The position numbers and the translations under genes are program-made. 64,000 nt of DNA from Christensenella minuta (GTDB lineage: Bacteria; Bacillota; Clostridia; Christensenellales; Christensenellaceae), in contig NZ_CP029256.1 in the NCBI RefSeq assembly GCF_003628755.1, forward strand, positions 2,437,585 through 2,501,584. The letters run 5' to 3'. This document shows positions 20,132-28,989 of this stretch, piece by piece. The stretch's first letter is position 1. Every line of letters begins with the position of its first letter. The notes under the pieces were generated by a model that was not told the DNA's origin, did no database searches, and saw only the letters and a program-made list of their open reading frames with translations.

Positions 20132-20290
20132 ATGAAGTCGGTTCCCGGCAAAAAATTGAATATCCGTTTCGCAGGGACGGTAAAAAAGGCCTTCCTTACG
20201 GCGTTTCCCAAGACCCTCCCAATCTTTGCGGGCTTCTGGTTCCTGGGGCTTACCTACGGTATCTATATGAACGTATCCGCTTTCCCTTAG
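20132..20290 (+). pseudogene. azlC: azlC 5' fragment, interrupted by mobile element
   Basis: The 52 codons from ATG 20132 encode the start of an AzlC-type branched-chain amino acid exporter subunit (AFPKTLPIFAGFWFLGLTYG then IYMNVS). After the codon TCC (20276-20278) host sequence stops, and the frame runs into element DNA and a TAG at 20288. The rest of the gene resumes in the same frame at 28990 (SGFSFWYPMLMSL). Joining the two at the shared TCCG gives an uninterrupted azlC, so this copy is a clean insertional knockout and not decay. Confidence 0.88.
20270..20290. other. attL junction of the mobile element
   Basis: Host azlC sequence up to TCCG (20276-20279), then element sequence CTTTCCCTTAG. 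The arm TTTCCC is complementary to GGGAAA at the other end. Confidence 0.75.
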
Positions 20291-20312
20291 TTAAAGATAT
20301 GAACCCTCATTA

Positions 20313-20507
20313 TCAGTCTACTTTTCCAATAAATCGGTAGTATATCTCAATTTCCTGTATTCTTTCATTACCCTCATTCGTTGCTGCTTCGTGAATGAGG
20401 ATTTTTTCTATCATTGCATTTAATAACGGTGCTGTCAGTTCCTTTGGTACAGAATACTCTTTGATTAACTCAATCCACTTTTCAGCACCTATCATATCCT
20501 GTTCCAT
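20313..20507 (-). pseudogene. C-terminal part of the serine recombinase, separated by a frameshift
   Basis: Sixty-four residues (QDMIGAEKWIELIKEY through IEIYYRFIGKVD) match the usual C-terminal end of Tn4451/TnpX-type large serine recombinases. They lie in a different frame from the main part of the gene, which stops at 20525. In this frame the reading continues upstream as PKIREELSKMEQD, so a single base deletion around 20525-20545 explains the split. Confidence 0.75.
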
Positions 20508-20524
20508 TTTACTTAGTTCTTCTC

Positions 20525-21931
20525 TTATCTTAGGTTCGTTATCTGCTGTTCCAGTTCTATTTGTTCTTTTTGATACTTGCTAGACAACATCACAAAATTT
20601 CGCTCCGTTATCTTCTCACCGGCTCTATCTTCATACATTTTCACAAACAGACGGTCAATCTCATTTTGTCGGTTCTCAGCTTTCTTCAAGGCACTTGCTT
20701 TTTTCTTCTTTTCCCGTATTCGCTCTGCATTGCCGACTTTCTGTATCTTGTTCAATACCTTTTCTTCGTCCTGCTGTACTGCCTTAGCCCAATACTGCAA
20801 GCGTTCCAATACGGCTTGATACAATACATCATAACGGATATAGTGCATGGAACAATTACCTTTGCCAAACTGTCCATAGTAACTGCAAGCATAATAACTG
20901 TAAGGCGTTTTATTTGCCTTATTTGTCGCAAACCGCATAGACCAGCCACAATCCGCACACTTGACAAGCCCTGCAAATATCGGCGTTGCCTTTTCCTTTG
21001 TCTGTCTGCGTCTTGATTTTATCTGCTCCTGCACACGATAGAACACTTCCTTGTCAATAATCGGCTCATGCGTGTTTTCTACTCGAAACCACTCACTTTC
21101 GGGCTTACGCACTTTCTTTTTACTCTTGAACGATACCGTAGACTTCATATTGTGAACGCTGTTTCCTATATAAACCTCATTTTTCAATATCGCCTTGATA
21201 TGAGCAATCGTCCACTCGTAACGCTTGCTTTCGGGTTTGCCCTCAAAGATGTGCGCAAAAGTATCATACCTTGTAAAATTCAGCCATGCTGGTGTAGGAA
21301 TTTTTTCTTCTCGCAGTATCTTTGTGATTTTGGCACTTCCATAACCTTGAAAGGCTAGGGAAAAGATTTTTTCAACAATCCATTTTGTTTCCTCATCAAT
21401 CAACAGTTTGCCTTTGATGTCAGGGTGTTTCTTATATCCTAACGGAGCATAAGCACCATAATGAGCACCTTCTGCAAATTTTGTCTTAAAGGCAGATTTT
21501 ACTTTACGGCTTGTATCTCTAGCCACCCATTCATTGATAATGTTCTTAAATGGTGCAATCTCACTTTCGCCTTTTTCGCTGTCTACACCGTCGTCAATCG
21601 CTATGTAACGGACATTATGACTAGGAAAATACAATTCTGTATATTGTCCTGTCATAATGTAATTTCTGCCAAGACGGGAAAGGTCTTTCGTTACAACACA
21701 GTTGATTTTTCCTGCCTCTATATCCTCAATCATTCTTTGAAAGCTCGGTCTTTCAAAATTTGTTCCCGACCAGCCGTCATCAATATATTCATCAATGACA
21801 TTCAAATGATGTTCTTTTGCATATAGACGCAACATACTTCTCTGTGTGGTAATGCTGGAACTTTCGCCCTGTAATTCATCATCTCGGCTCAACCTAAGAT
21901 AAAGTGCAGTATTGTAAATCTGTTGTTTCAT
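20525..21931 (-). CDS. Large serine recombinase (integrase), lacking its C-terminal end by frameshift
   Basis: 468 aa of a site-specific recombinase that integrates and excises the element. It has an N-terminal resolvase domain (ALYLRLSRDDELQGESSSI with catalytic Ser near 15, VTKDLSRLGRNYIMTG near 82), a central recombinase domain (PLGYKKHPDIKGKLLIDEE), a zinc ribbon (CADCGWSMRF, then CSYYGQFGKGNC) and a coiled-coil region rich in Lys/Glu. It ends early at 20525. The missing 65-70 residues follow in another frame. Start at ATG 21931 behind GGAGG. The remaining protein might still bind DNA. Full activity is doubtful. Confidence 0.88.
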   Translation of the reverse strand: MKQQIYNTALYLRLSRDDELQGESSSITTQRSMLRLYAKEHHLNVIDEYIDDGWSGTNFERPSFQRMIEDIEAGKINCVVTKDLSRLGRNYIMTGQYTELYFPSHNVRYIAIDDGVDSEKGESEIAPFKNIINEWVARDTSRKVKSAFKTKFAEGAHYGAYAPLGYKKHPDIKGKLLIDEETKWIVEKIFSLAFQGYGSAKITKILREEKIPTPAWLNFTRYDTFAHIFEGKPESKRYEWTIAHIKAILKNEVYIGNSVHNMKSTVSFKSKKKVRKPESEWFRVENTHEPIIDKEVFYRVQEQIKSRRRQTKEKATPIFAGLVKCADCGWSMRFATNKANKTPYSYYACSYYGQFGKGNCSMHYIRYDVLYQAVLERLQYWAKAVQQDEEKVLNKIQKVGNAERIREKKKKASALKKAENRQNEIDRLFVKMYEDRAGEKITERNFVMLSSKYQKEQIELEQQITNLR

Positions 21932-21950
21932 TGTCAGTTATCCTCCTTTA

Positions 21951-22007
21951 TAACTAACCCGTGTTTACAATACCTGCTTGCAAGTAAAGTATAACACGGG
22001 TTCTTTT
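21951..22007 (-). promoter_or_regulatory. Recombinase promoter region with inverted repeat
   Basis: AACCCGTGT (21956-21964) and ACACGGGTT (21994-22002) form a 9-bp inverted repeat enclosing TTATACT on the minus strand, a likely -10 for the recombinase gene. On the plus strand the same structure followed by CTTTTT could terminate transcription. Part of it is repeated near the right end of the element (28938-28961). Confidence 0.5.
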
Positions 22008-22042
22008 TGTCATTCAATCTATTTCTTACAACTGCACCTATT

Positions 22043-22456
22043 TTATGCGATTGTCTGCTTTGCTTTTTCCAGCATGACATCAGTTAAAAGTTCTTCCATT
22101 GTCTTTCCCTTTTCGGAAAAATGCTCTTTTACAACAATCTTTGTCTTTCCTCTGTTGCCAATGCCACATTTGTTATTTTTCTTTTGAATTGTTTTTACAG
22201 TATCAGCAATAACACATACCCCCTTTCCGTAAAATTTTTTAAGCAATTCAACGGCTTTTGTCATAGCCCACAGGAGTTCCACCTCTGCATAGTTCTTATG
22301 TAGCCGTACCCATTGCGTGCGACGACGCTCTGAACGCTCAAGCTGTGGCTGTACGGGGGTATCATTATTGACAGCACAGGTCATGGCGATAAAAGAAGAC
22401 AAGTCTTTTACAAGAGTACAAATAGTTTTCGCTCGCTTTTGCAGGGGAAAGGTCAT
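22043..22456 (-). CDS. Hypothetical mobile-element protein with TnpW-like C-terminus
   Basis: An open frame of 137 codons. The last 45 residues (GKTKIVVKEHFSEKGKTMEE onward) resemble small TnpW-type proteins encoded next to TnpX-family recombinases. The N-terminal part has no recognised relative and no good ribosome-binding site, so the real protein may be shorter or the frame may be a fusion remnant. It lies just upstream of the recombinase gene on the same strand. Confidence 0.4.
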   Translation of the reverse strand: MTFPLQKRAKTICTLVKDLSSFIAMTCAVNNDTPVQPQLERSERRRTQWVRLHKNYAEVELLWAMTKAVELLKKFYGKGVCVIADTVKTIQKKNNKCGIGNRGKTKIVVKEHFSEKGKTMEELLTDVMLEKAKQTIA

Positions 22457-22544
22457 GGCGTATTTGTTTCAACGGCTCGCTGTCTGTCAAACGTATTGAA
22501 CTGCTTTATTCAGTTGTCAAAGAACCCGAAAGAAGAAAATCATT

Positions 22545-23200
22545 CCTTTTTCACTACTATCTGTACGGCAAACGTCCATTGGCTAAGTTAGAATAGAAAA
22601 AAGTTCAAAAATCTTTTCCTGCACCATATAGGGATAGAAGTTGTCGTTTTGCTAAGTTGATGATGAAAAAAGATTGTTCTTCTTTTCACACCCTAACTAC
22701 CCTTGCAATACCGTTACTGCCAACTATGGAATGAAATATTTTCTTTGCTCCATATAGGGAACGGAAACCATGAATTGTTAAGTTGAGAAGAAAGCATTTT
22801 CCTCTTTTCATAGAACACTGACCACTAATTATGAATTTCCGACATTTTTCACAATTTTTTTCTTCTATCAAATCATATAAGGACAGCAATCCCCGATTTA
22901 ATGACTTGTTCCCTAGAAAAGTTTAGATTTCCTCAACTTCACTCCATATAAGGGATGGAAACCTTGTTTTGTTGCAGATTTTCAAAATAATTTCAATTTC
23001 TTCTTACACTCCGTATCTGTACACCAAATAAAGATTTCATGACCTCATTTCAAAAATAGTTAGATTTCCTTTTCTCGCACCATATCTGTACGCAAGTAGC
23101 CGTTTTGTTGCACATTTAATAAAATAGATTTATTTTTCTTTTTTCACTTCACATAGGGAATGAAAGTGGCTCTTTGCTGACTAAATCTGAAATTTTCCGA
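22545..23200. repeat. Degenerate tandem array, period about 68 bp
   Basis: About ten related units are spaced 60-70 bp apart (near 22552, 22622, 22687, 22747, 22812, 22870, 22939, 23006, 23077, 23147). The better units start with a T-rich stretch then CACTCCATATAGGGATGGAA, with a second conserved patch such as TTTTGCTAAGTTGA about 15 bp on. Units vary greatly, and the array is non-coding. It lies directly after the relaxase gene. Function unknown. Confidence 0.6.
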
Positions 23201-23205
23201 TTACA

Positions 23206-24420
23206 TTAAAAAATACCGTCATTCTCTTGTGGAACAGCGGTATCTATACGTTCTTCTATGGTTGATTTCTCTAATTGTAATAAATGTTTATGCTTGTCTT
23301 TGAGTTCTGCCTGCTCAATCATATCTTTCAATATTGTTGTATGATTTTCTCTGTCTAATGCCTGTACCATTTTTATCGTTGGTGCGACCTGTCTTTGTAG
23401 CCAATGCAATGCCTTTTGTAAGGTGTATGGCTCTGGCTTTGTGGTTAATCGTATCGGCTCTCTGTTTTCTCCTACAAACCACGCCCAATCATCATTTGTT
23501 TTCCATTGACTTTTTGGCTTATCGTCCTCTCTATCAACAAAGCGTACATAATGATTGATAATAGAAAAAGCGGTACGTTTAGCGTCCCGATAGGTCAGTA
23601 AATCTACAACCGCATAATAGGCTCGTTCATTCTTCATACGTATTTCAAAACGGTTCTTAATCTCCGTATCATCAATCTCTGTGCCATTCTTGACATACTG
23701 CTCATAATTCTTCTGATAAGCACACATATATAATTCGCTACTTGTTGAGCCTAAATATAAGGTTTCGCCTGTATTCTTCGGTGTATCATTACCGCATTTC
23801 TCCGTACCGCTGTAATCTTTCTGCATACGGAAGTAGGAAATACATTCGCCTGCCTTGTATTTTTCCTTTAATTTTGGAATATCTAATATCCCTACTCGGT
23901 CATTGATAGCCAAGTCAAGCCGTTTCATCACACTGCCAGCCGTCATACAATCCAGCATGAAGTCATATCATGAGCGTTCCTGTGCCAGCAGATAACTTTC
24001 CATTTGCCGACAACCTCTGCCTTTCAGTTCCAACAGAACCCCTAAATGCTCCTGCATGGAACACATGATGTTGATGTCGCCAAGCACATATTTGCTTTCA
24101 TAGCCGTATTTTCCATAATCTTCATAAAGCATATAGTCTGCTTTCAGTTGTAATACATCACGGATAATCTTTAATGCGTCCGTAGTAGGAAAACGGACAC
24201 GGAAGTAATCAATCAGCAAAAACAACGGTTCTTGCGGATTAAAACGCTCAATCTGTTTTTCTAATGTTTCTTTTAGTTCTTCCGTCAATGGAAGTTTTTC
24301 TTTTTCAATGCGGTTATAATGCTCTCGACTGATACCACAGGCAACGGCAAGTCTTGTTTGTGTAACTCCGTATTCGTCACGTTTACGTTTTAATTCTTCA
24401 ATAAAATCTTTATCATTCAT
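23206..24420 (-). pseudogene. mobT: Relaxase/replication initiator (Tn916 Orf20, MobT, Rep_trans), interrupted by TGA
   Basis: A 404-codon frame in two pieces with the same reading frame. The N-terminal piece (from ATG 24420) has an XRE-type helix-turn-helix (GVTQTRLAVACGISREHYNR near 18-37) and the start of the Rep_trans domain (DYFRVRFPTTDAL). The second piece continues it (RLDLAINDRVGILDIPKL, RFEIRMKNERAYYAVVDLL). The only break is a TGA at 23968-23970 in the context QERS-stop-YDF, where relatives have Trp, so TGG to TGA explains it. This enzyme nicks oriT to start transfer. As written it would be truncated at 150 aa. Confidence 0.88.
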
Positions 24421-24848
24421 TCTTTAATTCCTCCAATCAAAAAAGGCAACTACCGTTTACTGATAATTGCCTGCATTTCTACAAAAGAAAAAGACAATCA
24501 ATTTCTTATTTGAAATCAACTGTCTTTCTTAATGTTATATTCGATTTTTCAAAGTGATAATAACATAATTTATATCACACCATGTAAAATGCGGTTTTGC
24601 CTTGTAAATATAGCGTTTTCCGCTTGTTAGTGTATATTGTCTCTTGTTTTTTGTGCCCCCCTTGTTAGATAACGGGGGCTTGATATGCTCGCCACAGGCT
24701 CGCTCATGGTCGAAGCAATCCAGCCCTTTGCCAGACAAGCTGGCATGGCGTTATTGGCTAAAGCCACGCCACCAGAACTGGATCACTTCTCCCATGCGAG
24801 TGTGTCTGCATTTCCTCACTTTATCTTTCAAGGTTTTCAAGAAAATCC
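24421..24848. other. Non-coding region between relaxase and surface protein, containing the oriT-like repeat
   Basis: AT-rich. Short frames on both strands here appear to be conserved only because they overlap the oriT-like sequence at 24655-24680. A small inverted repeat GGCAA/TTGCC (about 24445-24471) lies just upstream of the relaxase gene. Confidence 0.5.
24655..24680 (-). other. Candidate oriT of Tn916 family
   Basis: On the minus strand the sequence AGCCCCCGTTATCTAACA is followed by AGGGGGGC, an inverted C/G repeat around TATCTAACA. This closely resembles, from memory, the oriT core nicked by Tn916 Orf20. It lies about 235 bp upstream of the matching relaxase gene, as in Tn916. Confidence 0.65.
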
Positions 24849-27755
24849 TTATTTATCTTCTAACGCTCTCTTTTTCTTCCATACCGCTAAGATTGCAACA
24901 GCTAATGCACTCATAATTGATAATGCTGTAAACAGTCCAACATTTGTCTGATCGCCAGTTTTTGGATTTTCATGTTTTGTATCAGTCTTTTCCTTATTTG
25001 GCTTGTTATTCTCTGGTTTTGGAGCTTTCTTTGCATTTACCGTAACGGTAATTGTTTTTGTCACAGAAGCCCCCTTGCTGTCCGTTACCATATAAGTCAC
25101 TTCGTATGAACCTGCTTTTGATGTGTCCACGGTATTTCTAATCACATTTTTTATGGTCAGTGTAATATTGCCATCTTCTTTATCCGTAGCAGTTACATCT
25201 TTCAATGGGTCAAAGTTATCCCCAATGGTAAGCGTTTTATTCTCTGCATGAATAACCGGAACTTCATTCAATATTTCCATTTTAGGGTTGACTGTTACAT
25301 AGATTGTTTTCATAGTAGATGCGCCTTGGCTGTCTGTTACCTTGTAGGTCACTTCATATGTGCCAGCCTTGCTGGTATCTACTGCATTCTTCACAACTTC
25401 GATGCTTGCTGTAATGTCTCCATCTTCCTTATCGGTTGCTGTGACATCGGCTTTCGGGTCAAACGTATCTCCGACAGTCAGTACTTTATCCGTTGCATTG
25501 ATGACTGGTGCTTCATTCAGTGTTTCCATCTTTGGATTTACGGTAACCTGAATGGTAGTCGTATAAGATGCGCCTTGGCTGTCTGTTACCTTGTAGGTTA
25601 CTTCATATGTGCCAGCCTTGCTGGTATCTACTGCATTCTTCACAACTTCGATGCTTGCTGTAATGTCTCCATCTTCCTTATCGGTTGCTGTGACATCGGC
25701 TTTCGGGTCAAACGTATCTCCGACAGTCAGTACTTTATCCGTTGCATTGATGACTGGTGCTTCATTCAGTGTTTCCATCTTTGGATTTACGGTAACCTGA
25801 ATGGTAGTCGTATAAGATGCGCCTTGGCTGTCTGTTACCTTGTAGGTCACTTCATATGTGCCAGCCTTGCTGGTATCTACTGCATTCTTCACAACTTCAA
25901 TACTTGCTGTAATGTCTCCATCTTCCTTATCGGTTGCTGTGACATCGGCTTTCGGGTCAAATGTATCTCCGACTGTCAGCACTTTATCCGTTGCATTGAT
26001 GACTGGTGCTTCATTCAGTGTTTCCATCTTTGGATTTACGGTAACCTGAATGGTAGTCGTATAAGATGCGCCTTGGCTGTCTGTTACCTTGTAGGTTACT
26101 TCATATGTGCCAGCCTTGCTGGTATCTACTGCATTCTTCACAACTTCAATACTTGCTGTAATGTCTCCATCTTCCTTATCGGTTGCTGTGACATCGGCTT
26201 TCGGGTCAAATGTATCTCCGACTGTCAGCACTTTATCCGTTGCATTGATGACTGGTGCAACGTTTAAGTCAATCAGGTTCAAATCCCAAGTTGCGTTATA
26301 GACCACTGTTTTTGTTACGGTATCCTCAATTTCAGGTGACCATCCTTTAAAAGTATACCCATCTCTTACTGGTGTTTCTCCGTAATCTGGTGTTTTGGAA
26401 CCCGTTATGCAATTTTCGAACACTTTGTCTTTAAATACTTCTTCACCATCGACTCCATCAGTATATGTGACTGTATAACGTGTCTTTGTTCCCTGTGCTG
26501 CTGGAATTGGAAATTTAACTTTTTTTCCATCTGGCATATTCAGTTCGGTCTTGCCATTAAGCGGATACCAGTTTTCTTCCTTAAAGTCAGCATTATCTGC
26601 GTCTAATTGGACAGTATACTTTAGCTGATAAGTATAATAAGTTTCTCCGTCTTTTTCTTCCGTTGTGGCATTCTGTAATTTCCATGTAAAGCCATTTTCG
26701 CCTTGTGAAATATCTGCTGGCAAGCCACTTACTTTAACAAATGGAGCAGAGCCATCCGTTACAGTTAGATTTTCACCAGTAATTCCACTAACAACACTTT
26801 CTGCAATGACCTCAAATACTTTCTCTATTGCAGATGCATCAGTAGCAATCAAAGCTGTTTTATCACTGCTGGCTATATTCTGTTGCAAAAACTCAGAAAC
26901 TTTCGGACCCTTTTTATAGGTATAATCATTTTGCGCACCGTAGCACACCGTATAAACCGTCGATTCATTTTTCAATGTAGTGGCTTCTTGCGCCGTCCGT
27001 TCATTGATTGTTTGACTTCCGCTACTTCCAGAGCCTTCTTCATCATAGGTAACACCGTCAATGACAACATGCTTATGAAACCATGTTATTAATCCGCCAG
27101 AACATTTCTCAAGATAATAAGTTGGTGCTCCATCGGTTATAACGACAGTGTCTTTATTTTCTTTTGTAATATCCTTTACAGTATCGCTTTTGTACAAAGA
27201 TGTTGCCATCTTTAATCCAGCCTGTAAATTGGTTCCTTCATTTGCTCTCAGATTGTTAATAGCATCTTTTGCAGACTTCTTTCCTTCTGCCGTGGAAACA
27301 TCTGTCCAGTTTAACACAACATTTGCGCCTGTACTAAATTGAACGATTGCTAAATAACGACCTGAATTTTCTCCGTCACCTGCATAAGTATCAATCAATT
27401 TATCCGAAGAATTCTGAAACATCTTTAAACGCGAATCATCATTCATACTGCCTGATGTGTCAGCAACTAAAACCATTGCTGATTTAGGCGAGAGTTGCTC
27501 AATTTTTTGTTTCGTAACAACTTCCAAAGTGACATCATAAGTATTGTCACCTTTAGGCATGGCGGTTTTATTAACAGAATGTATTCCATCTGGCAATGTC
27601 TGCTGTAATTCGCCTTCCACCCATTGACCGGAATCGTTATAATAACCGTTTTTTACTGTACCGCTTTCGCTGGCAAGAGCAGAAGCATTAACAGGTGCTA
27701 ATGTGAAACACAAGATAAACGCCAACGCAAAACTTGTGAATCTCTTTAAATTCAT
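24849..27755 (-). CDS. vWA-domain surface protein with tandem Ig-like repeats and sortase signal
   Basis: A 968-aa cell-wall protein. Signal peptide 1-27. A von Willebrand A domain (about 90-330) has the metal site DTSGSMNDDSR near 106 and VITDGAP near 207. An InlB/MucBP-like strand region (VRDGYTFKGWSPEIEDTV) follows. Four nearly identical 83-aa repeats (each VINATDKVLTVGDTFDPKAD onward) and a fifth divergent one follow, like bacterial Ig/DUF5011 modules. The end has a Lys/Pro-rich wall spacer, NPKTGD, a hydrophobic segment and KKKRALEDK. The NPKTG form points to a clostridial sortase. AAAGGAG precedes the ATG. It is the cargo of the element and probably an adhesin. Expression may be switched (see 27841-28022). 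Confidence 0.9.
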   Translation of the reverse strand: MNLKRFTSFALAFILCFTLAPVNASALASESGTVKNGYYNDSGQWVEGELQQTLPDGIHSVNKTAMPKGDNTYDVTLEVVTKQKIEQLSPKSAMVLVADTSGSMNDDSRLKMFQNSSDKLIDTYAGDGENSGRYLAIVQFSTGANVVLNWTDVSTAEGKKSAKDAINNLRANEGTNLQAGLKMATSLYKSDTVKDITKENKDTVVITDGAPTYYLEKCSGGLITWFHKHVVIDGVTYDEEGSGSSGSQTINERTAQEATTLKNESTVYTVCYGAQNDYTYKKGPKVSEFLQQNIASSDKTALIATDASAIEKVFEVIAESVVSGITGENLTVTDGSAPFVKVSGLPADISQGENGFTWKLQNATTEEKDGETYYTYQLKYTVQLDADNADFKEENWYPLNGKTELNMPDGKKVKFPIPAAQGTKTRYTVTYTDGVDGEEVFKDKVFENCITGSKTPDYGETPVRDGYTFKGWSPEIEDTVTKTVVYNATWDLNLIDLNVAPVINATDKVLTVGDTFDPKADVTATDKEDGDITASIEVVKNAVDTSKAGTYEVTYKVTDSQGASYTTTIQVTVNPKMETLNEAPVINATDKVLTVGDTFDPKADVTATDKEDGDITASIEVVKNAVDTSKAGTYEVTYKVTDSQGASYTTTIQVTVNPKMETLNEAPVINATDKVLTVGDTFDPKADVTATDKEDGDITASIEVVKNAVDTSKAGTYEVTYKVTDSQGASYTTTIQVTVNPKMETLNEAPVINATDKVLTVGDTFDPKADVTATDKEDGDITASIEVVKNAVDTSKAGTYEVTYKVTDSQGASTMKTIYVTVNPKMEILNEVPVIHAENKTLTIGDNFDPLKDVTATDKEDGNITLTIKNVIRNTVDTSKAGSYEVTYMVTDSKGASVTKTITVTVNAKKAPKPENNKPNKEKTDTKHENPKTGDQTNVGLFTALSIMSALAVAILAVWKKKRALEDK
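25321..26316. repeat. Four tandem 249-bp repeats inside the surface-protein gene
   Basis: The anchor GCGCCTTGGCTGTCTGTTACC occurs at about 25321, 25570, 25819 and 26068, exactly 249 bp apart. Copies 1-2 share one set of base changes (CGATGCTTG) and copies 3-4 another (AATACTTG), while a different site alternates 1/3 versus 2/4. This indicates recent duplication and exchange. Confidence 0.92.
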
Positions 27756-27779
27756 TTTTTTCTTTCTCCTTTCTTAAAT

Positions 27780-27827
27780 TTACAGCAGGCGATTAAAAAG
27801 GGTCAATTTATCTGTTCCTCCTTTCAT
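27780..27827 (-). CDS. Possible 15-aa leader peptide before the surface protein
   Basis: A short frame MKGGTDKLTLFNRLL sits in the leader between the candidate switch and the surface-protein start. Its own codons contain AAAGGAGG. It may be only a spurious start, as there is no independent support. Confidence 0.2.
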   Translation of the reverse strand: MKGGTDKLTLFNRLL

Positions 27828-27840
27828 ACCACCATTCTCA

Positions 27841-28022
27841 AAAAGTACACTTTTTGAAAAAAAGTGTACTTTTTGAAAAAAGCATGAGTCAGGGAAGACC
27901 ATCAACCTTAGCAAGAGATTATGGTTAGAAAAACGGCTAAAAATACCACGAGTATTGAAAAAATAGGCATTATCGCTTATAATGGAGATGATACAACAGA
28001 CTGTTAAAAAGTGTACCTTTTA
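27841..28022. promoter_or_regulatory. Candidate invertible promoter flanked by recombinase sites
   Basis: AAAAAGTACACTTTTT (27841-27856), AAAAAGTGTACTTTTT (27860-27875) and AAAAAGTGTACCTTTT (28006-28021) each have inverted arms around a central dinucleotide, as serine-recombinase crossover sites do. The first and third are in opposite orientation and enclose TTGAAA (27955-27960), 17 bp, TATAAT (27978-27983) on the plus strand. As drawn, the promoter points away from the surface-protein gene. Inversion would aim it at that gene, with a leader of roughly 115 nt. The adjacent small recombinase is the obvious enzyme. Inference from layout only. Confidence 0.5.
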
Positions 28023-28037
28023 AGAGTTCAGCACAAA

Positions 28038-28979
<942 letters not shown>

Positions 28980-28989
<10 letters not shown>

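Follow-up and report, generated by a model that had tools for sequence, protein, structure and literature searches.

Invertible promoters (invertons) of gut bacteria were reportedly described by Jiang et al. in 2019. In gut invertons, as at the locus analysed here, short inverted repeats flank a promoter, a recombinase lies nearby and surface genes are frequent targets. Hin acts on sites of approximately 26 bp with a 2-bp crossover, resembling those described below; the cwpV switch of Clostridioides difficile is operated by a tyrosine recombinase, and Sin-type resolvases use a res layout of direct-repeat sites with accessory subsites. In the Hin/fljBA flagellar switch, a serine recombinase inverts a promoter segment, which is what we propose here. 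In the cwpV switch, a 195-bp segment upstream of a cell-wall protein gene inverts and approximately 5% of cells express the gene, according to the available part of PMC2784873. For the hCom2 invertons, the accessible portion of PMC11892184 gives the most significant inverton-invertase link as a Clostridia group with a tyrosine-type recombinase, and in a read-based survey 14 of the 15 inversion-positive Firmicutes samples were Clostridia (excerpt of PMC5903667).

The window, the whole 64-kb stretch of DNA that was analysed, carries a small serine recombinase and a surface-protein gene separated by a 282-bp gap. Within this gap lie three palindromes, nearly identical to one another, and a promoter, between the two genes as an earlier note on this DNA had described. 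The recombinase (28038..28646, minus strand), a predicted invertase of 202 aa, has the motifs Y-V-R-V-S and R-L-G-R and matches Pfam Resolvase at 9.3e-28. The surface protein is a predicted sortase-anchored adhesin of 968 aa (24849..27755, minus strand) with a signal-peptide-like N terminus, VWA and GBS104-like Ig domains, five bacterial Ig-like repeats and an NPKTG motif with a basic tail; AAGGAGA before its start (27765..27771, minus strand), read by eye, is a likely ribosome-binding site. Recombination site 1 is adhesin proximal (27835..27860, minus strand; 16-bp core 27840-27855, AAAAAGTACACTTTTT) and is inverted relative to the recombinase-proximal site 3 (28001..28026, plus strand; core 28006-28021, AAAAAGTGTACCTTTT), and an extra site 2 (27854..27879, plus strand; core 27859-27874, AAAAAGTGTACTTTTT) is direct relative to site 3. 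Sites 1, 2 and 3 score 39.3, 28.8 and 31.7 bits, respectively, with a 26-bp profile derived from 146 sites of other genomes with the window left out (consensus CTATCAAAAGGTGTACTTTTTGATAG). In the 64-kb window, this profile exceeds 8 bits at three places, which are the three sites of the earlier note. Their arms and their plus-strand centres (AC, GT and GT) are as claimed there, as is the start of site 3; sites 1 and 2 each begin one base lower than was given. Site 1 is the counterpart of the adhesin-proximal site in two of the closest relatives, L014 and L015.

At three or fewer mismatches, the window contains seven matches compared with 0.50 expected (100 shuffles, none of which reached seven), and six of these are the three sites counted on both strands. 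At no more than one mismatch, the 16-mer occurs at four places in the 2.97-Mb genome, the three sites (exact) and a 1-mismatch match elsewhere. A backwards-read control pattern likewise gave four matches genome-wide, so the genome-wide number alone is no proof and only the clustering counts. Beside the site region lies a 23-nt direct repeat (78%; 27781-27803 and 27992-28014), one copy of which overlaps site 3. A similar repeat pair is visible by eye in L014, and the repeat may have been left by an earlier duplication of a site.

Sites 1 and 3 enclose, in opposite orientation, a sigma-70-type promoter (TTGAAA-17-TATAAT; 27955..27983, plus strand) that points at the 3' end of the recombinase and away from the adhesin, as the earlier note had proposed, and the window shares with invertons the feature of inverted repeats around a promoter. 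In L014 and L015 the promoter is likewise placed and oriented. The score of the window promoter was equalled in 2 of 3000 dinucleotide shuffles of 27875-28005. On the basis of the site layout and of the inverted segment found in relatives, the predicted invertible segment extends between the centres of sites 1 and 3 (27848..28013) and would now be in the OFF orientation. In the mechanism we propose, the recombinase would bind the 26-bp palindromic sites 1 and 3, pair them over a short, helically phased loop, cut at the 2-bp centre and religate, and approximately 166 bp including the promoter would thereby be inverted. In the present orientation the promoter faces the recombinase and the adhesin would be OFF; after inversion the promoter would sit at approximately 27906-27878 on the minus strand, with a leader of approximately 115 nt to the adhesin ATG at 27755, and the adhesin would be ON.

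The best solved relative of the recombinase is Sin/bin3 (2r0q, 2.3e-31), with homology to the Sin-type catalytic domain. Gamma-delta resolvase follows at 1.6e-17, and the DNA-invertase entries 4m6f (2.4e-13) and 3uj3 (6.9e-13), both of which we take to be Gin, rank below Sin and gamma-delta. In this ranking, which is by match and not by tree, the closest kinship is not to Hin/Gin; because the enzyme is nearer to the Sin/bin3 and gamma-delta resolvases than to the DNA-invertase entries, we do not class it as a Hin-type invertase. With the master invertase Mpi model (NF009949) it reaches 48.6 bits, compared with a curated cut-off of 272. The same genome encodes two paralogous recombinases (L012 and L013; 57-58% identity), one of which has an internal stop, and across the two 14-kb stretches around them the site profile gave at most 0.4 bits. 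A kinship with Sin and gamma-delta/Tn3 resolvases rather than DNA-invertase entries, three sites in the window and a cassette that rides a mobile element would all suit a resolvase system, in which the three sites would be res-type subsites resolving dimers or cointegrates of that element; such a reading can be weighed against the arrangement of sites in related genomes.

Recombinase copies were taken from named genomes (the best 80 of 511 relatives, which makes the sample incomplete), viral contigs and further genomes of the host's family, phylum and related groups. Once identical copies were removed, 183 of 205 remained, and 164 of these were kept because 250 nt or more of downstream sequence was available. 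The counts also omit a paired segment that contains a run of N and a locus whose sites have non-complementary centres. In this incomplete sample, 86 of the 164 distinct copies have an outer pair of CAAAARGTNNACYTTTTG-like sites downstream with reverse-complementary centres. The same rule found two sites in 0 of 153 upstream regions and in 1 of 1640 base-shuffled downstream regions, where no pair had reverse-complementary centres; compared with the upstream control, the recombinase is linked to the repeats as in invertons. The paired share falls with recombinase identity (4/4 at 90% or above, 13/15 at 75-90, 45/62 at 70-75, 16/46 at 65-70 and 8/37 below 65) and is 62/81 at 70% identity or more to the window enzyme. 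Some of the other 78 copies have diverged sites (the L194 group), and for the rest no consensus pair was found. The recombinase stop codon lies no more than 20 bp, in either direction, from the start of the first site in 75 of the 86 paired loci. Relatives in plasmids (5000 best-scoring records) and phages all fell below 60% identity.

Outer centres are reverse complementary in 87 of the 88 loci that have at least two sites (GT/AC 52, AC/GT 23, AT/AT 6, AG/CT 4, CT/AG 1 and AA/TT 1), the sole exception, CA/AC, being seen only at the 3-mismatch level, and lineages that use another dinucleotide show it at both sites. To judge from this pattern, the centres behave like a crossover dinucleotide. 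On the same comparative grounds, the window sites belong to the adjacent recombinase. Direct-repeat res sites with accessory subsites, as in Sin-type systems, are not the rule in this family: in 85 of the 86 paired loci the counted sites number just two, forming one inverted pair, mostly with a promoter between them, and the window has three. The alternative raised in the earlier note, that the sites are resolvase or operator subsites, fits this layout poorly. A resolvase system is also at odds with the position of the relatives before many unrelated genes and with the inversion between fixed flanks in L194 described below, and we regard it as very improbable.

Promoters were called with a 17-bp spacer and a -10 element ending 18-24 bp from a site, in 67 segments from an earlier set of 100 distinct copies. 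Fifty-one segments were OFF (promoter toward the recombinase), eight were ON (toward the downstream gene) and eight were unclear; a stricter score gave 32, 7 and 28, with base-shuffle rates of approximately 0.9% and 1.6%. The average alignment to the OFF segments was better when reversed for all eight ON segments, compared with 1 of 51 OFF segments. Pairwise, 57% of 408 ON-OFF and 33% of 2550 OFF-OFF comparisons were better inverted, which is a modest orientation signal. With the promoter hexamers masked, 4 of 8 ON and 5 of 51 OFF segments stayed above zero (p = 0.002), a small difference because most segments are too diverged. Both orientations, a further inverton feature, are thus present in the family, in related genomes only. 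A terminator within the segment that would stop OFF read-through was rejected as a family feature (4/51 OFF segments, and 2/51 on the other strand, versus 2.4 in shuffles). L049, considered as a further ON case, was also rejected: its shortened 73-bp segment (L049:6606-6720) is homologous to that of L027 in the same orientation and lacks a clear promoter, so that the call is unclear, and it is possibly a locked or decayed switch. Two viral contigs, L095 and L096, carry a related cassette with GAATAACACAAA and TTTGTGTTATTC inside the segment, seen by eye, which are possibly an operator pair.

The best evidence for the proposed inversion is a comparison of orthologous cassettes in one genus, g286 (G873 = L194, G869 = L195, G865 = L197 and G852 = L198, together with L069, which contains the whole of L124 from G642). 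The five cassettes of this group have 116-bp segments between matching sites; these sites are too diverged for the group to enter the 86/164 and related counts. L194, which comes from a 70%-complete MAG, aligns with L198 and L069 in the same orientation on both flanks, at 87-88% nucleotide identity in the recombinase (last 600 nt) and at 78-84% in a common downstream gene. The segment between these flanks is reversed: inverted, it matches L198 at 96/113 positions (score 158 versus 27 as is) and L069 at 92/106 (146 versus 22). It is likewise inverted relative to L195 (89/113) and L197 (88/113), whose recombinases align the same way round. The L194 promoter, TTGATT-17-TAAAAT, points toward the gene, whereas the promoters of L198, L069, L195 and L197 point toward the recombinase. 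Weaker inverted homologues are the pairs L130/L170 (one genus; 75/100) and L023/L038 (67/92), each above all 5000 shuffles; both were selected as the top pairs overall, and neither pair has matching downstream flanks.

The earlier note had suggested looking for related genomes with the segment in reverse. In the g286 group such reversal is found (78-87% inverted identity, best case), whereas the closest cassettes outside the L194 comparison share an orientation: one common orientation was seen in each of the sets window/L014, L015/G004, L019/L022/L117, L027/L034, L036/L039/L047 and L195/L197. It is comparison between genomes that brings out the site family, its paired inverted layout, the promoters in both directions and the inverted segment between orthologous cassettes; from it we infer inversion activity in the window genome, an effect on adhesin expression and the role of site 2. 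The note's main proposal, an invertible promoter, is supported by the paired sites with reverse-complementary centres that directly follow homologous recombinases, by promoters facing both ways and by an inverted segment between fixed flanks in one genus. We consider it highly likely that the window locus is an invertible-promoter phase switch. The adjacent enzyme very probably flips the promoter segment, turning the surface-protein gene on and off.

Site spacing was analysed in 61 non-redundant two-site loci out of the 74 then paired. Site-to-site distances cluster near 125, 136-137, 147, 157 and 168 bp, with a concentration at 10.5 bp (R = 0.64) that none of 20000 jittered sets reached, in a broad peak spanning 10-11 bp. 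Apart from a few exceptions, the 27 loci that fall outside the main mode keep phase with it on average (mean cosine 0.61, 0/20000). This phasing fits dimers that have to face each other across a loop of approximately one DNA persistence length. Looping without recombination would be expected to show the same phasing, so the phasing supports the pairing step rather than the cut. We therefore also considered a static arrangement in which dimers at both sites form a repression loop, recombination is lost or rare and transcription from the promoter yields mainly antisense RNA against the recombinase. The excess of OFF segments (51 versus 8) and the single orientation of the closest relatives would suit such a loop; against it stand the retention of the catalytic motifs in 145 of 148 recombinase copies, the reverse-complementary centres (87/88), which make sense for strand exchange and not for looping, and the inverted orthologous segment of L194. 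In our judgement there is very little chance that a static loop accounts for the locus.

Within the invertible-promoter reading, site 2 complicates the switch, as the earlier note had recognized. The window spacings are 147 bp (sites 3-2), 166 bp (3-1) and 19 bp (2-1), and the 26-bp footprints of sites 1 and 2 share 7 bp, so these two sites cannot both be fully occupied. Among the 86 paired loci the window alone has a third counted site; one further locus has three matches and must, by subtraction, be either the N-containing one or the one that fails the centre rule at the level of three mismatches. The closest relative in the named genomes (best 80 of 511 relatives), L014 of Faecalicatena faecalis, has a recombinase protein 100% identical to that of the window and two sites 145 bp apart, without a counterpart of site 2. 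By central orientation, sites 1 and 3 would give inversion, and sites 2 and 3 would give deletion. Since site 2 repeats site 3 directly at a distance of 147 bp, pairing of the two would delete the promoter and lock the adhesin off. After 1-3 inversion, site 2 would sit 19 bp from site 3 and 147 bp, in direct orientation, from site 1, so deletion would be possible in both states.

These features raise the prospect of a degenerating switch, in which the family is invertible and the window copy can no longer leave the OFF state or tends to lose its promoter by deletion, because site 2 crowds site 1. The uniqueness of the third site, its 7-bp overlap with site 1 and its in-phase 147-bp distance from site 3 point in that direction. 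Set against this are the score of site 1, approximately 10 bits above that of site 2, the 1-3 spacing of 166 bp, within approximately 2 bp of in-phase, and the still intact promoter, and we think degeneration unlikely. Sites 1 and 2 (27840/27859) pair, as claimed, in a strong predicted hairpin (-25.5 kcal/mol). In an OFF-state read-through transcript this hairpin might, speculatively, damp leakiness.

The switch lies in a low-GC element of approximately 8.7 kb (20283..28989, ends approximate) that is inserted in azlC and carries large-serine-recombinase and MobT-type relaxase reading frames (Pfam). The insertion is near the azlC 5' end and interrupts the azlC reading frame in the window; four of the five congeners searched have an azlC match without the insert, and the fifth has no azlC match. 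The MobT match (6e-105) is below the model's cut-off and covers part of the model. The MobT-like relaxase (23206-24420) is split over two adjacent reading frames, a Rol_Rep_N part and a Rep_trans part, and may therefore be inactive in the window. At 20313-21931, one reading frame encodes the large serine recombinase and another a DUF4368 region. The cassette recurs in the closest relatives, L014, L015 and G004, and in two of these three the surface protein is another one. In L015 (Mediterraneibacter massiliensis) the match covers the recombinase and part of the element, and the adhesin is replaced by a BspA-type leucine-rich surface protein; the congener G004 has a BspA-type version of the cassette at another place.

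The first downstream reading frames of 68 cassettes are diverse among the matches listed (25 of the 74 matched families). Families listed include BspA-type LRR (5), zinc ribbon (5), dockerin (4), AMP-binding (3), SPFH (3), S-layer (2), PP2C (2), kinase, SHIRT, collagen-like and others. Signal-like N termini were found in 43 of 69 (window included; simple heuristic), but of 56 complete frames only 5 have a sortase-like motif; sortase-anchored adhesins are thus just one of many kinds of target. Regulation need not always fall on the first downstream frame: that of L073, which to the eye resembles UvrB, begins at a distance of 295 bp from the site. The cassette also stands before DNA methyltransferase-like genes in L069:6803-12562, L194, L195, L197 and L198. 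The resemblance is weak for the gene of L194, L198 and L069 (PADLOC 7e-9 to 3e-8; Pfam below cut-off), and the L195 gene has a Type II methyltransferase match at 4.5e-104; in L069 further reading frames follow, including one for a 979-aa protein. This arrangement suggests that restriction or defence systems at these loci are phase variable.

A broader reading, to which we give an even chance, is that of a portable two-part switch family spread through the Clostridia. In it, a Sin/bin3-like small serine recombinase would invert DNA between 26-bp palindromes, most of which lie 125-168 bp from each other, at spacings near whole helical turns, and the switch would have come to stand in front of unrelated genes (encoding adhesins, methyltransferases, kinases, SPFH proteins and phosphatases). 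The window copy would be cargo of a mobilizable-type element and would have acquired a third site, direct and overlapping, through which it could remove its own promoter. A recombinase together with two helically phased CAAAARGTNNACYTTTTG sites is a signature by which phase-variable genes, those for DNA methyltransferases among them, should be predictable in the genomes and MAGs of Clostridia; a single assembly would suffice and reads would not be needed, and the ON/OFF state would often be readable directly. For synthetic biology the switch is a candidate flip switch, natural and compact, and it offers a case in which to study how a resolvase-like enzyme turns into an invertase on very short loops.

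With respect to published systems, the words 'serine' and 'resolvase' are absent from the accessible main text of the hCom2 inverton study (PMC11892184), and neither the site nor the enzyme family is described in the available parts of PMC2784873, PMC11892184, PMC5903667 and the phase-variation review PMC11868660. Four 12-base pieces of the site turned up in 5 papers, none with a title on this switch system; earlier detection of individual family members is quite possible. In cwpV the promoter is outside the inverted segment and the OFF state is proposed to act via a terminator (available part of PMC2784873), whereas the window promoter is inside. Compared with Hin, the window enzyme is nearer to Sin/bin3 than to the DNA-invertase entries. 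The window recombinase gene also lies outside the segment, unlike that of Hin, and the segment is far shorter. The Sin/Tn552 bin3 resolvase is the closest solved relative by sequence, and the family differs from it in that the sites are inverted pairs around a promoter and not direct res sites. The switch is of a type already known, the invertible promoter, here with a Sin/Bin3-like enzyme.
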